IMG/VR virus record: IMGVR_UViG_3300028388_004678
Span: 1 to 24,709 of that record
Direction: 5' to 3' (one strand)
Origin: a virus
DNA: 24,709 nucleotides
Shown here: in pieces, positions 1 to 12,052 of the stretch
Numbering within the stretch: position 1 is the first letter of the stretch
Layout of the letters: every line of letters begins with the position of its first letter
Notes under the pieces: model-generated
Seen by the model: only the letters and a program-made list of their open reading frames with translations
Told to the model about the DNA's origin: nothing
Database searches by the model: none
Made by a program: the position numbers and the translations under genes

Positions 1-227
1 TGTGCAAGACCATTACCATTACCATGATCAGTAAGAGCCCAAGCGTCCATGCCTTGCGATTCAGACAAAACAAAGTCAATATGATCTGCTGGGTAGCCTA
101 GTCCATCAAATGTAGATACCTAGGAGAAGGTTGAATGGGCATGCAAACCAACGAATCTGTCGGGTCTAAGCATATCAAGTTCAACCTTCTCTAGGCACCT
201 CCTTTCTGTGTTAAATGTGTTATTCAT
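1..227 (-). CDS. dnaE: DNA polymerase III alpha subunit (DnaE), N-terminal part with in-frame TAG; runs off the left edge
   Basis: This is the 5' end of a replicative C-family polymerase; only its PHP-domain start is in the window. After position 119 the frame encodes STFDGLGYPADHIDF, then GMDAWALTDHGNGNGL, matching the PHP pattern (HxH near the start, then ALTDHGN). The ATG at 225-227 follows AAAGG by 6 bases and opens a 35-codon stretch ending PDRFVGLHAHSTFS, which supplies the HxH motif. A TAG at 120-122 then interrupts the frame, and reading resumes in the same frame after it. An alternative ATG lies at codon 19. The HAHSTF codons differ at nearly every synonymous site from the detached copy at 1242-1307, so this start seems to have come with the endonuclease gene upstream. 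The family call is firm. Whether the stop is bypassed, read through or an error cannot be seen here. Confidence 0.82.
119..195 (-). repeat. Strong inverted repeat enclosing the recoded dnaE start
   Basis: The arms at 119-135 (cctaggagaaggttgaa on the plus strand) and 180-195 (ttcaaccttctctagg) pair over 16 bases with one bulged base. The 44-base loop (136-179) holds the codons for residues DMLRPDRFVGLHAH. In the mRNA the 3' arm contains the codons STFS, the UAG stop and the next two bases. The hairpin could affect translation at the stop, or it could be a scar of fold-back DNA synthesis. Confidence 0.75.
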
Positions 228-260
228 TATATACCTTTTTAATATGTTTAAATTTGATTT

Positions 261-289
261 ATTATAAAATACAATGTTATTATTTACAC
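261..289 (-). promoter_or_regulatory. Promoter P1 for dnaE (GTGTAAAT-N15-TATAAT)
   Basis: Read on the minus strand, GTGTAAAT (282-289) is followed by 15 bases and TATAAT (261-266). It lies just after the endonuclease stop codon and about 34 bases before the dnaE ATG. The same two boxes with the same spacing recur in front of other genes in this window. Confidence 0.7.
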
Positions 290-294
290 GTATT

Positions 295-1203
295 TTATTT
301 ACCTTCCCATAAAATCTTATCTGAGTAAGATTTTCTTAGAAAATCATATTCGTCGCCTGAGATTATTGCTAACGTTACGTCTGGGCGTGACTTCTTAAAT
401 TCAGAAATTTTTTCTGCTGATCGATTGTCCATATATCCTTTAATTTCAAAATATATGTTTCCAACCTTAAAATCTGGTGTATAAGTTATACCTTCAGATA
501 TTTCGAACGTATCTGGCTCATATTGAAATTTTATTTTATTATACGTTAAAACTCTAGCAAAGTTAGCTTCCCAGTTGCTTCTAACATAAAGATTTATGTC
601 CTCTCTAAAACCTCCGTTGCCAAAAGAGTATATTTTATATTTTTTAATTCTTTTTGCAGCATCTTTTGACATGTTACGTCTAACTTCTTTTGAAAACTTA
701 AAACCTTTTCTTAATTTTGAAAGTTTTGTTTTTGCTTGACTTGACTTTGTCCAGTGATCGACGCCATATTTTTTTAAGCAAGTTTCTTGAGATTTGTTTT
801 TCATTTCTCCAGAAGCCCATCTTTCTGTTAGGCCTTTTGAAAGCTTTTCTAAAGCTTCTTCACTAAATTTTCTTTCGCCATTGTCATATTGTCGCTTCAA
901 AGTTTCAGACAATTTTTTGTTTTGTTTTTCAGTTCTTTTATAAGATCCGTTTGTCTTTCTTGTTTTAACACCTTTTTTAAGTTTACAAGATTTACATTCC
1001 GTCTTTTGTTTAATCTTAGTTTTATCTAAAAATTCTTTATTGCAAATATTACATTTTTTTTGTTGCGCTGGTGATGTGTTCTTATTTTTCTTTCTAAGCT
1101 TGTAAGCACATTGTTTACTACATGTCTTTTGTGTCCTCTTCTTATAAATTACTTCAAATTCTTTATTACATATTTCGCATTTGTTTTTAACGTATCTTGG
1201 CAT
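295..1203 (-). CDS. Homing endonuclease, zinc-finger plus PD-(D/E)XK type, inserted in dnaE
   Basis: About 302 residues. The N-terminus has two Cys4 modules, the first C9-x2-C12 with C28-x3-C32, the second starting near residue 51. A basic Lys/Arg-rich middle follows, of the kind found in NUMOD-type DNA-binding linkers. The C-terminus carries RSNWEANFARVL, then YEPDTF, YTPDF and YFEIKG, the order expected of a PD-(D/E)XK or Vsr-like nuclease core with Asp in PDF and Glu-x-Lys in EIK. The ATG at 1201-1203 is chosen because AAAGGAGGT precedes it by three bases; the longer frame to 1230 lacks such a site. It sits between a detached dnaE 5' fragment and the rebuilt dnaE start, so it is very probably a mobile gene targeting the conserved HAHSTF codons. 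The closest relative here is the gene at 7682-8452, with the same domain plan. Cleavage specificity is inferred only from position. Confidence 0.85.
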   Translation of the reverse strand: MPRYVKNKCEICNKEFEVIYKKRTQKTCSKQCAYKLRKKNKNTSPAQQKKCNICNKEFLDKTKIKQKTECKSCKLKKGVKTRKTNGSYKRTEKQNKKLSETLKRQYDNGERKFSEEALEKLSKGLTERWASGEMKNKSQETCLKKYGVDHWTKSSQAKTKLSKLRKGFKFSKEVRRNMSKDAAKRIKKYKIYSFGNGGFREDINLYVRSNWEANFARVLTYNKIKFQYEPDTFEISEGITYTPDFKVGNIYFEIKGYMDNRSAEKISEFKKSRPDVTLAIISGDEYDFLRKSYSDKILWEGK

Positions 1204-1241
1204 ACTACCTCCTTTAAGGTAAATATACACATACTAAGTTT

Positions 1242-1307
1242 TTAAAATGTGCTGTGCGCATGAAGGCCGACAAATCTATCTGGAGGAATAATATTGTTTA
1301 ATGACAA
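1242..1307 (-). pseudogene. dnaE: Detached dnaE 5' fragment, copy 1 (fossil start)
   Basis: Twenty-one codons from a TTG start (1305-1307), preceded by AGAAAGG seven bases upstream. They encode a peptide ending NNIIPPDRFVGLHAHSTF, then TAA. The residues PDRFVGLHAHSTF are identical to those at the rebuilt dnaE start. It stops exactly where the continuing dnaE codons (STFDGLG) begin on the far side of the endonuclease gene. This is the upstream half of the original gene, separated by the insertion. It keeps a promoter (P2) and ribosome binding site, so a 21-residue peptide could still be made. Confidence 0.8.
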
Positions 1308-2103: not shown

Positions 2104-2163
2104 TTAAATGTGGGCATGAAGCCCGACAAATCTATCTGGAGGAATAATATTGTTTATTGACAA
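2104..2163 (-). pseudogene. dnaE: Detached dnaE 5' fragment, copy 2
   Basis: Nineteen codons from a TTG start (2161-2163), preceded by AGAAAGG, encode NNIIPPDRFVGLHAH, then one Ile and TAA. The nucleotide sequence is almost the same as copy 1 (three differences in about 53 bases, leader included), unlike the recoded main copy. Compared with copy 1, a few bases are missing after the HAH codons. It is a second remnant or duplication of the same 5' end, with its own promoter P3. Confidence 0.75.
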
Positions 2164-2188
2164 TTTATAACCTTTCTTGTTTTTGTTT

Positions 2189-2217
2189 ATTATATTATTA
2201 TTGTAAAATATTTACAC
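2189..2217 (-). promoter_or_regulatory. Promoter P3 before dnaE fragment copy 2
   Basis: Minus-strand GTGTAAAT (2210-2217), 15 bases, TATAAT (2189-2194), followed by AGAAAGG and the TTG start of the fragment. It is a near copy of P2 without the tandem repeat. Confidence 0.65.
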
Positions 2218-6521: not shown

Positions 6522-7725
6522 TTAACTTAGGTTTTCCCCATCTTAAAGTAATTTGTGCATTATTATCTAGCATGTTTGTGCATATATTAAAAGGTTCTAC
6601 ATCATAAAACTTTATAATTTTATAAAGATTGTCGTACAAATAGTCAACACCTTCATCTAAAACTTGTTGGTCATTAAAAACATTTAAACTACCTTCAGCA
6701 AGAACAGGGCCTATTCTGCACATAATTTCTTCTATGATTGCGTTAAATGCAGCAGTGACTTGATTTGCGTTAACGACAAAAGAAAACTCGTTAGGTGCTG
6801 TATTAATTGTATTGCCACTTATAGACTGTAAAGCGCTTGTATTTGCATTATCAACCCCTAGAGTATAAACAGTAATGCATGGCTCTGCTGATGTAGAATA
6901 TATGCAGTTGTTATCGTTAATGCTTCTTATATTGTTTTGCACAAATGTCTGTGAGGGTCCAGATCCTTCGTTAGGCGATCCGTCTGAGATAAGAAGAATA
7001 TAGTAAGCTTCGTAGTTTGTCGTTTGAATTTGTGACATTGCTTCTTGCAAAGGCACAACGAAGTTTGTTCCTCCACTCGGGCTTCTATTGTTAACGATAG
7101 AAAGAACAGATTGCTTGTGTTGCTGACTTTTTCCAATACCTGATTTTTCTATCACACTGCTGTTATAAAGGATAACAGAATAACTTAGATTAAAGTCTGA
7201 GTTAATAAACTGTGTTACTGTGTCTTTAAGTTGCTGTATTCTGTTTCCTCCCATCGAACCGCTGTAGTCTAATAGCATAATAACAGCAGCATTAATTAAG
7301 TCAACATCATGAACTTCTTCAGCAACAGACACAGTTACAGACTTTGAAGTTTCTCCTCTTCCAGGATTATAGTTTGAGGTAATACCAAACTTTCTTACAC
7401 ACACGCTATCAGGCGTACATTCTAGACCTAAGTCAATGCACTCAAAGTCAGGAGAAACATTTTGTGAAATATAGCTAGCACATTCGTTAAGAGAGTCTGT
7501 ACTGCACAAGGCTTGAACATCATTAGTTTCTATTACAGACAAGCCTAAACCTACGCTACACGAGTCTAAGATTTGTTTTTCTTCGTAGACATTTAAAGCA
7601 ATTCTTCCGTATTGTATTGCTGAAAGAGATAAAAGTGCGAGCAAAGCAGCAATCATTGCAGTTGTCAAGGCGGCAAAACCTTTATGACGACGATTTTTTG
7701 AGGTATATAAGATGTCTTGTTCCAT
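6511..7725 (-). CDS. VWA-domain protein with prepilin-like N-terminus (TadG-like)
   Basis: 404 residues. RRHKG followed by FAALTTAMIAALLALLSLSA (residues about 12-36) resembles the leader and hydrophobic helix of TadE/TadG pseudopilins, so the body is probably outside the cytoplasm. The cysteines at about 54-110 support disulfides. A complete VWA domain follows: MIDAS motif DYSGSM near 151, the Thr in GGTNF, and ISDGSPNEG. In bacteria such proteins belong to Tad pilus or adhesin systems. In this phage context it may be a host-derived surface or superinfection protein, or a decoy; the role is unknown. The chosen ATG lies inside the end of the upstream endonuclease gene (44-base overlap) and has no clear ribosome binding site. 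Base composition matches its neighbours. Confidence 0.72.
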   Translation of the reverse strand: MEQDILYTSKNRRHKGFAALTTAMIAALLALLSLSAIQYGRIALNVYEEKQILDSCSVGLGLSVIETNDVQALCSTDSLNECASYISQNVSPDFECIDLGLECTPDSVCVRKFGITSNYNPGRGETSKSVTVSVAEEVHDVDLINAAVIMLLDYSGSMGGNRIQQLKDTVTQFINSDFNLSYSVILYNSSVIEKSGIGKSQQHKQSVLSIVNNRSPSGGTNFVVPLQEAMSQIQTTNYEAYYILLISDGSPNEGSGPSQTFVQNNIRSINDNNCIYSTSAEPCITVYTLGVDNANTSALQSISGNTINTAPNEFSFVVNANQVTAAFNAIIEEIMCRIGPVLAEGSLNVFNDQQVLDEGVDYLYDNLYKIIKFYDVEPFNICTNMLDNNAQITLRWGKPKLNVQ

Positions 7726-8452
7726 TATAATTTTTGTTTTCTATATTGTCTATATTCCAATAATGATTACTTTGCTTTATCTGAGTATAAAATTCATGCA
7801 TTAGCAAAACGTCAATGTTTACACCTTGCTGCTTCAAGATATCAGCAGCTAAAAGGTTAGAATTAAATTTTCTGTCTCTTCTTATAGCTTTAAGCTCTAC
7901 GTATCTATCTTCGTCCGGGTGATAAAAGTCTGGTGTATATTGCTTATCTCTGCCATCATACTGAACTGTGAATGTTTTATGCTCGTAAACATACGGCTTG
8001 TTTGTAGCTTCACACCATCGTGCATAGTCTGCCTCTAAAGACGACTTAAAAAAGTAGTTAGAAGGTAAATCATGCCTAAATCCCATTCTACCGTTAGAAG
8101 GTATTTCGTGAAGACCACTACTTTGTGCTTTGTTTTGGCAATCTTTACCACAGTACTTAGTTTCTCTGCCTATAGGCTTCTGGTAGTCACTTCCACAATA
8201 ATCGCACTTTAAATCGACTCTTTCAAGCTTGTTCTTTTTTAAGTAACATTCTCTAGTACAATAAGTTTTTCCTCTTTTTGACTTAAATTCTTTGCTACAT
8301 ACTTCACAATTTTTTAAAGTATACTTGGTGCTAGACTTATTTTTACATTCTCTAGAACAAAATTTAGATGTGTTTGCTCGAGATTTAGGTTTTTTGTATT
8401 TAACTTTACAGCTTTCACATTGTAAAGTTACTTGTGTTGATGCTTTTGACAT
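7682..8452 (-). CDS. Homing endonuclease-like protein with three zinc fingers and PD-(D/E)XK core
   Basis: 256 residues. Three Cys4 modules are visible in the first 110 residues (CESC with CSREC, CEVC with CTREC, CDYC with CGKDC). The C-terminal part has KSSLEADYARW, then YEHKTF, YTPDFYHP and RYVELKA, the same nuclease motif order as the gene at 295-1203; Asp in PDF and Glu-x-Lys in ELK are the expected catalytic residues. The start ATG 8452 follows AAAAGGAG. It lies between the epimerase and the VWA gene, and its last codons overlap the start of the VWA gene, so it has probably invaded that junction. Free-standing nucleases of this kind spread between related phages by cutting nuclease-free genomes. 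Confidence 0.8.
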   Translation of the reverse strand: MSKASTQVTLQCESCKVKYKKPKSRANTSKFCSRECKNKSSTKYTLKNCEVCSKEFKSKRGKTYCTRECYLKKNKLERVDLKCDYCGSDYQKPIGRETKYCGKDCQNKAQSSGLHEIPSNGRMGFRHDLPSNYFFKSSLEADYARWCEATNKPYVYEHKTFTVQYDGRDKQYTPDFYHPDEDRYVELKAIRRDRKFNSNLLAADILKQQGVNIDVLLMHEFYTQIKQSNHYWNIDNIENKNYNGTRHLIYLKKSSS

Positions 8453-11236: not shown

Positions 11237-12052
11237 TTAATTCTCCTTCCGAAATAATCGGCGTTGATAATTTAACAATATTTTATCCAAAGTAGTCTTT
11301 GTTATAGGATTATGCTTAATTATACAGTTTTTTGTCATATTTTCATTATAGTATAAATTTTCATATTTTACAATTTCTTTATGAGAAAGCTCTTCATAAG
11401 ATATTTTAGTTCTTGGCTGAAATGTTCCGTCAATAATTTTTGTAAAAGTTAATCTACTAATTCTTTCTTGCTTTTGAAAAGCTCTAGCACTAGATCCTCC
11501 TGATTCTAGGTACTCTTTCCAGGCTTGTTTTATTTCTTCAACTCTTTTAGCATTTGGTTTTAAAGATTGTTTTTTTCTTTTACCGTACACTCTTTCATAC
11601 TCTTCTGTACCTTTTATAAACTTTTTTCCTTTATTAGATGGTGTACGACCAGTGCCGCTTTGTTTTCTATTTGCATAATATTCTCTTCCCATAGCTTTCA
11701 TTGCTTTGCTAGTCTTTTCTGAAATTAATTTTTTTGTAGCATCTGTGTGAGTATCACCTTTATCAAACCCACCACAGTTTTCTGAAAGATTGTAAAAGTC
11801 TTCATTGTTTTTTGCGTCATAGTATGATATCCACTTTTCTTCTGCAATAATAGCTTCTTTTATGTCTCCGTATATTTCTTCCAGCGTTGATCTTTCAAAG
11901 TTTTCTTTGCCATGCTTTTTGATTGAAAGCTTAAGCCACTTACCTGAGCCTAGGTATCCTGCTTCCCATGCAGCTATATTAGAGCATCTTCCTACGTATT
12001 TCTTACCATTTAACTTGTTTGTTGTAATATAAATATAGTGATTTGTCTTCAT
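11237..12052 (-). CDS. GIY-YIG homing endonuclease inserted at the start of nei
   Basis: 271 residues. HYIYITTNKLNGKKYVGRC at the N-terminus is a variant of the GIY and YIG motifs. GSGKWLKLSIKKHGKENF and the Glu near 73 fit the remaining catalytic motifs. GGFDKGDTHTDATKKLISEK is a NUMOD3-like DNA-binding element, followed by basic repeats and a helix-turn-helix-like C-terminus. The start ATG follows GAGGAGGT. The leader ATATTTAC with GGAGGTAGTATG closely matches that of the unrelated nuclease gene at 295-1203. Its stop codon is five bases before the Pro codon of nei, and its last codons carry the AAGGAG that would serve nei. It is a mobile gene that separates nei from its original start. Confidence 0.88.
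   Translation of the reverse strand: MKTNHYIYITTNKLNGKKYVGRCSNIAAWEAGYLGSGKWLKLSIKKHGKENFERSTLEEIYGDIKEAIIAEEKWISYYDAKNNEDFYNLSENCGGFDKGDTHTDATKKLISEKTSKAMKAMGREYYANRKQSGTGRTPSNKGKKFIKGTEEYERVYGKRKKQSLKPNAKRVEEIKQAWKEYLESGGSSARAFQKQERISRLTFTKIIDGTFQPRTKISYEELSHKEIVKYENLYYNENMTKNCIIKHNPITKTTLDKILLNYQRRLFRKEN

Follow-up and report, generated by a model that had tools for sequence, protein, structure and literature searches.

A nuclease-bearing cassette in the PHP motif of phage dnaE with a predicted translational bypass element

A mobile homing cassette appears to have invaded a phage dnaE gene at the codons for its PHP motif, bringing a T7-endonuclease-I-like nuclease gene, a programmed translational bypass element and a new start with its own promoter; from sequence comparison, we assign this reading a probability of about 0.8. 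The cassette lies in a linear IMG/VR virus record (IMGVR_UViG_3300028388_004678; 24,709 nucleotides, here called the window) whose 5' part opens inside a minus-strand dnaE gene. In all, 35 distinct phage dnaE genes were found interrupted, and the PHP metal-binding motif is hit at one and the same position in every one. Efficient programmed bypassing in phages has one established example, T4 gene 60, and counterparts have long been presumed (PMC5009743).

Anatomy of the interruption

The features of the window that bear on the interruption are as follows.

115..1244, minus strand: mobile cassette, consisting of the nuclease gene, the new promoter and the new dnaE 5' end with its putative bypass element; sits between HAHSTF and STFDGLG, as placed by the empty-site comparison
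1242..1307, minus strand: stub of the original dnaE start, LSLNNIIPPDRFVGLHAHSTF; codons 1307-1245, then TAA 1244-1242
295..1203, minus strand: homing-endonuclease-like gene, 302 residues; N-terminal Cys pairs (zinc-finger-like) and a C-terminal T7-endonuclease-I-like PD-(D/E)xK domain
255..294, minus strand: new promoter-like stretch ACGTGTAAATA...TATAATAAA, recognised by sequence; resembles the repeat preceding the old start
123..227, minus strand: ORF1, the new dnaE start, 35 codons MNNTFNTERRCLEKVELDMLRPDRFVGLHAHSTFS, the last being the putative take-off codon; new ATG at 227-225; pN/pS 0.20 across type A
198..205, minus strand: internal Shine-Dalgarno-like AAAGGAGG, directly 5' of the stem
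180..200, minus strand: 5' arm of the predicted stem, core GAGAAGGTTGAA at 191-180; from folding and covariation across types
114..135, minus strand: 3' arm of the predicted stem, core TTCAACCTTCTC at 135-124; extended pairing includes the gap and landing codon (z = -6.1)
123..125, minus strand: putative take-off codon TCC (Ser), rare here
117..122, minus strand: coding gap TAG GTA, stop codon first; identical in all TCC type A genes
114..116, minus strand: putative landing codon TCT (Ser); decoding would restart at ACA 113-111
1..113, minus strand: dnaE body, cut off by the contig end; homologous loci run on to full-length DnaE (for example L003, 1169 aa, TIGR00594 E = 9e-165)

Much of this anatomy had been described in the first-pass annotation, which proposed that a homing-endonuclease-like gene splits an essential gene and provides it with a substitute promoter and 5' end, and here it stands. 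The nuclease ORF (295-1203, minus strand) is present in the sequence. Flanking it 5' is what is left of the original dnaE start (codons 1307-1245, then TAA), and 3' of it come a promoter-like stretch and the new ATG (227-225); in the second PDRFVGLHAHSTF, exactly 11 of 13 codons differ synonymously and no residue changes. The original dnaE promoter now stands before the nuclease gene, and the likeness of the new promoter-like stretch to stretches near 1385 and 2215 was judged by eye. Where the annotation went wrong is at the junction, since it had the recoded copy joined straight to STFDGLG, and TCC TAG GTA (125-117), with an in-frame TAG, intervenes. The recoded copy ends in a stop and does not, as had been supposed, restore an open gene; rescue of dnaE is possible only by recoding, which is best explained as translational bypassing.

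The recoded HAHSTF is followed by TCC TAG GTA TCT and then by ACATTTGATGG, and the frame across the junction (TTC TCC TAG GTA TCT ACA TTT GAT) reads HAHSTFS*VSTFDGLG, with the TAG one codon past HAHSTF. A skip of 9 nt, from Ser TCC to Ser TCT, yields HAHSTFSTFDGLG, which is the reading of L012 and L049 (loci are given as L numbers), two uninterrupted relatives found by searching with the dnaE body, in which HAHSTF-STFDGLG is gapless. These close relatives provide the empty site that the annotation had suggested looking for, and their codons there are like those of the old stub and unlike those of the recoded copy. Alignment to L049 sets the bounds of the insert, with window 1358-1245 corresponding to L049 3886-4000 (95.7%) on one flank and window 114-4 to L049 4003-4113 on the other; L012 gives the same picture.

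Seven other contigs carry the nuclease (70-92% identical), and in all of them the TAG is at the same place, so a sequencing error is ruled out; the new start is also present in these contigs, as is the truncated stub wherever it is visible. The stub breaks after HAHSTF in L003, L004, L006, L008, L022, L034 and L106 as well. An assembly error at the contig end was ruled out by the same junction in independent contigs and samples, and because this recurrence goes together with the covariation described below, such an error cannot account for the interruptions.

The dnaE 5' end occurs a third time, as MSINNIIPPDRFVGLHAHI* at window 2109-2214, in a copy absent from the first-pass annotation; it is 87% identical to the stub at 1253-1358, and the plus-strand ORFs between the two (1413-2064) resemble the beginning of a neighbour gene read divergently. 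An earlier insertion or recombination may have left this copy behind.

A varied family of interrupted dnaE genes

The 35 interrupted genes were gathered by further dnaE scans together with nuclease scans, and all the sequences come from uncultured sources. Their gaps are 2-65 nt long and often out of frame (total shifts of 5, 7, 8, 9, 10, 11, 12, 38, 42 and 68 nt), and they were sorted into the following types.

Type A: TAGGTA or TAGATA
Type B: TAAATAAAA
Type C: TAAAGTT
Type D: TGAATAA or TAAGTAA
Type E: TAATAA, TAATAATA or TGAAAAA
Type F: TA
Type G: TAGCT
Type H: TAATGGT
Type I: TAGC
Type K: TAATAA
Type M: TGAATA or TAAGTA
J types (strong hairpins): J1, L045, 35 nt; J2, L051, 65 nt; J3, L168/L282, 39 nt

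Types C, D, F-I, J1 and J2 and two E variants are out of frame; types A, B, K and M, together with L088, L168 and L282, are in frame. A strong hairpin within the gap is found in L045, L051, L168 and L282, and the short-gap types have no hairpin of their own.

Across these types, a stop codon lies immediately 3' of the serine take-off codon in 34 of the 35 genes (the exception is L051), including the 12 of type A, where the take-off codon is TCC or, with the gap TAG ATA, TCG. In this AT-rich phage, no serine codon is used less than these two (4 and 19 of 512). If the landing codon is defined as the triplet preceding resumed reading, it matches the take-off codon at two or three of three positions in all 35 genes: it is identical in L120 and L045 and agrees at two positions in the remaining genes. 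The take-off/landing pairs include TCC/TCT, TCG/TCA, TCG/ACG, TCC/GCC, TCC/ACC, TCG/TTG and TCG/TCG, with ACG, ACC, GCC and TTG among the imperfectly matching landing codons. Removal of the gap gives, in each of the 35, residues of the kind seen in uninterrupted relatives, for example HSCFSVFDGLG in L160 (cf. L164), HSGFSIFDGLG in L184 (cf. L169) and HSGFSTFDGLG in L045 (cf. L044).

Searches of isolated phages found no close relative of this DnaE (best match, 50% over 38 aa; ~30% across the domain) and none of the nuclease (partial matches of about 30-43%). Bacillus phage vB_BpsS-140 has an unannotated dnaE that is uninterrupted at this site, and a scan of GTDB genomes returned a single match, on one archaeal-MAG contig.

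Both sides of the gap evolve as protein

In the type A genes, pN/pS upstream of the stop is 0.20, where the two remaining frames give about 1.0 and 2.5, and over the 21 codons from the landing site to the first in-frame ATG it is 0.087; both flanks are under purifying selection as protein. The DnaE bodies of full carriers, at about 1170 residues, are matched to DNA polymerase III alpha. Among 12 carrier contigs examined, 11 have a DNA_pol3_alpha match (the twelfth, L048, is cut at the contig end), with one dnaE locus per matching contig as far as match positions show; neither a second intact dnaE nor a family B polymerase was seen in these 12. In the carriers L016 (a 239 kb contig), L048, L043 and L045, stub and nuclease are both missing, so that the stop-containing start is the sole dnaE start, and L022 and L034 have kept the stub with the nuclease deleted down to its last codons.

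A conserved RNA stem and an internal Shine-Dalgarno-like site

Most interrupted genes contain a covarying stem of 7-14 bp in the upstream coding sequence, with a 3' arm that touches the take-off codon; in the short-gap types, the sequence before the take-off codon pairs with a stretch 32-44 nt 5' of it. When helix scores were compared with those of shuffled upstream sequence, 22 of 31 interrupted genes exceeded them at p <= 0.01 vs none of 72 uninterrupted genes (Mann-Whitney P = 3e-14), the type A genes among them being related and hence not independent. Types B, C, E, G, H and I pass this test too, type D is borderline (0.010-0.012), and the type F stem is weak (p 0.06-0.41). The direct statistics fail for types F and J, in which folding gives a 7-bp core (type F) and an AUGCGCG/CGCGCAU stem (L045 and L168). 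The arms vary by type (GAGAAGGTTGAA/TTCAACCTTCTC, GAGAACCCTGTG/CACAGGGTTCTC and GAGAAGCAGGGG/CTCCTGCTTCTC), with compensatory, two-sided changes at 9 of 12 pairs and none of 500 shuffles as good; this alignment of 12 rows was built with the best register per sequence, so the shuffled-sequence test is the fairer control. In the window, the predicted stem (-40.7 kcal/mol, z = -6.1) also takes in the gap and the landing codon. An AGGAG-like Shine-Dalgarno site stops 3-6 nt short of the stem in 26 of 31 loci examined and, with the stem folded, would come about 5 nt from the take-off codon.

The stem also bears on the recoding of the second copy, which the annotation had linked to escape from cleavage: conservation of the RNA stem (GAGAAGGTTGAA / TTCAACCTTCTC), and not such escape alone, largely explains the synonymous changes at the copy's end.

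The nuclease and its association with interrupted genes

The Pfam profile Phage_endo_I (PF05367) matches 5 of 10 members of the nuclease family (best 9e-7), the PHROG match is to endonuclease / Holliday junction resolvase, and the top five PDB fold matches are all T7 endonuclease I, albeit weak (E = 0.014). E212, E229, D244, E253 and K255 are invariant. Of 35 interrupted dnaE genes, 19 have a gene of this family as their immediate upstream neighbour, vs 1 of 197 uninterrupted ones (Fisher P = 2e-17), a count made over 232 distinct dnaE loci collected by dnaE similarity alone, whose 35 interrupted members overlap with, and are not identical to, the 35 genes of the family described above. No upstream nuclease was found within the stretch examined for 14 of 35 interrupted genes (L022 and L034 have remnants, and L160 is cut by the contig end).

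The interrupted state is scattered over the DnaE tree, changing at least 13 times on strongly supported branches and 21 times by parsimony, and L003 (interrupted) and L012 (uninterrupted) are nearly identical in the dnaE region. Stubs derived from different dnaE alleles are all cut after the same codon.

In L104, L107, L206, L211, L213 and L342, the same nuclease family is directly upstream of an uninterrupted dnaE (degenerate in L107), possibly an earlier stage or a case of protection by sequence difference.

Alternative explanations

One alternative, in which readthrough of the stop codon or code reassignment would fuse the two parts at the cost of additional residues within the PHP motif, is improbable, although the gap is in frame in types A, B, K and M and in L088, L168 and L282. 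As a general explanation it was ruled out by the out-of-frame gaps and double stops: most other types shift by a number of nucleotides not divisible by three, and L088 and L338 would need two adjacent stops to be read. Moreover, the gaps use TAG, TAA and TGA alike, the ordinary genes of the window end in all three as well, and the extra residues are absent from uninvaded DnaE at this site. A tRNA search of the window found none, and hence no suppressor tRNA there. Because the type A gap is in frame, readthrough in the window itself (product S-X-V-S) is excluded by analogy with the other types only. Even less probable is that the gene is broken or makes two polypeptides, a short N-terminal peptide and a body re-initiated downstream. 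ORF1 does strictly end at the TAG and an in-frame ATG (MDAWAL) is available downstream, but the sequence between the landing site and that ATG is strongly conserved (pN/pS 0.087), most gap types have no start codon near the landing site, and in the DnaE tree the interrupted proteins are at near-zero distance from uninterrupted ones.

There is very little to recommend a group I or II intron with a nuclease ORF that would join the old stub to the dnaE body. Precise insertion and a stub ending in T (HAHSTF) would fit an intron, but there is no Rfam intron match at E <= 1, L016, L048, L043 and L045 have no alternative 5' exon, the gap itself is just 2-65 nt, and the recoded internal copy evolves as protein. 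A specific group I candidate, with its 5' site between HAHSTF and TAAAA and its 3' site between TAG and GTATCT, was ruled out by the missing Rfam match and by the carriers with a single 5' end. Hardly any weight can likewise be given to the version put forward in the first-pass annotation, in which an open, cleavage-proof 5' end rescues dnaE with no recoding event; the 11 of 13 synonymous codon changes speak for it, but the in-frame TAG is kept in all carriers and the sequence refutes the open-gene part.

Proposed mechanism and relation to known systems

Programmed bypassing, as one rule, would explain all gap types. In the scheme that we infer, the ribosome would read 35 codons up to the serine take-off codon TCC, bringing the stop codon into the A site, and the RNA stem, preceded by the Shine-Dalgarno-like site, would refold around or behind the ribosome. 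Peptidyl-tRNA(Ser) would then release and re-pair with the landing codon TCT 9 nt further, and decoding would restart at ACA to give wild-type DnaE. Since the insertion site, where the nuclease would cleave empty genes, is also where the gap lies, the occupied gene should resist the nuclease and the essential protein would be kept; the natural reading of the gap is that it shields the cassette from its own nuclease, in which sense 'cleave and rescue' may be an apt description. At even odds, in our judgement, is the broader proposal of a large family of nuclease-borne bypass elements at a single codon position in an essential polymerase gene, with many independently arisen gap variants, spreading among phages as a natural cleave-and-rescue drive and using a composite signal that is not known from gene 60, namely an internal Shine-Dalgarno site that a stem, by folding up the coding sequence in between, brings beside the P site.

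F-CphI of cyanophage is a free-standing T7-endonuclease-I-like homing endonuclease that acts at the psbA intron insertion site; it shares with the dnaE cassette the nuclease fold and a gene that adjoins the presumed target, and no bypass element is known for it. SXT-type ICEs in prfC likewise supply a new 5' end and promoter for the gene they enter, but they are integrase-driven and reading continues without interruption.

The comparison with T4 mobA/gene 60, made in the first-pass annotation, proved a good lead. There, too, a homing endonuclease splits an essential phage gene (topoisomerase gene 39/60) and the insert has been proposed to protect against the nuclease (PMC5009743, PMC11194080, PMC2988022), and the two systems share a stop right behind the take-off codon, matched codons and a 5' stem-loop (PMC5009743, PMC11194080). 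Types J1-J3 also have a gap hairpin, and the short-gap types none of their own. However, the target here is the DnaE PHP motif, the nuclease is T7-endonuclease-I-like where that of T4 is HNH, the codons are Ser and not Gly, and gaps of 2-65 nt in many variants contrast with one 50-nt gap. In addition, ORF1 has 19-35 codons, a Shine-Dalgarno-like site precedes the stem, and the KKYK nascent-peptide motif of gene 60 is absent from ORF1 of every type, where another signal is possible. Since gene, nuclease, codons, gap lengths and nascent peptide all differ, the dnaE element, though apparently working like gene 60, is probably not descended from it.

The mitochondrial byps of Magnusiomyces capitatus (81 short bypassed inserts) resemble the dnaE gaps in being many and short and in their two-of-three landing matches (PMC5009743), and they too lack the KKYK signal. 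They differ in occurring in many mitochondrial genes, seemingly independently of mRNA context, whereas the dnaE case involves one site in one gene, a conserved RNA structure and a link to a nuclease. The terminase gene of Streptomyces phage Hau3 also has a short gap in a phage gene, but it is a candidate bypass tied to UUA decoding, with no homing endonuclease noted (PMC5009743). A search of the open-access literature found no dnaE bypass.

The combination of bypass and nuclease looks like a widespread route by which selfish genes enter an essential gene without killing it, and suggests more generally that homing endonucleases may colonise the most conserved codons of such a gene with neither intron nor intein. 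With gaps that range from 2 to 65 nt, both in frame and out, and with covarying stems and varied landing codons, the set would allow rules for take-off and landing to be derived by comparison. Gene callers would miss or mis-start polymerases interrupted in this way.

Other mobile-element-like features

Downstream of the PHP motif, further breaks of about 1-3 kb with in-frame extensions occur in dnaE near residues 428, 461 and 859 in L004, L005, L022, L034, L060, L088, L120, L168, L170, L016 and L043; they look like split inteins with a nuclease between the parts. L009 has a contiguous intein-like insert in dnaE between STAC and LHPDTTL. More distant relatives of the C-terminal nuclease domain (L217-L268) are directly upstream of another phage gene, MAAYKEQYYNLAEEEMQDLI..., perhaps encoding a sigma-factor-like protein. 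Elsewhere in the window, a second zinc-finger PD-(D/E)xK homing-type nuclease (7682-8452) overlaps the end of the neighbouring gene, and a GIY-YIG (SegE-like) endonuclease (11237-12052) lies beside a formamidopyrimidine-DNA glycosylase gene.
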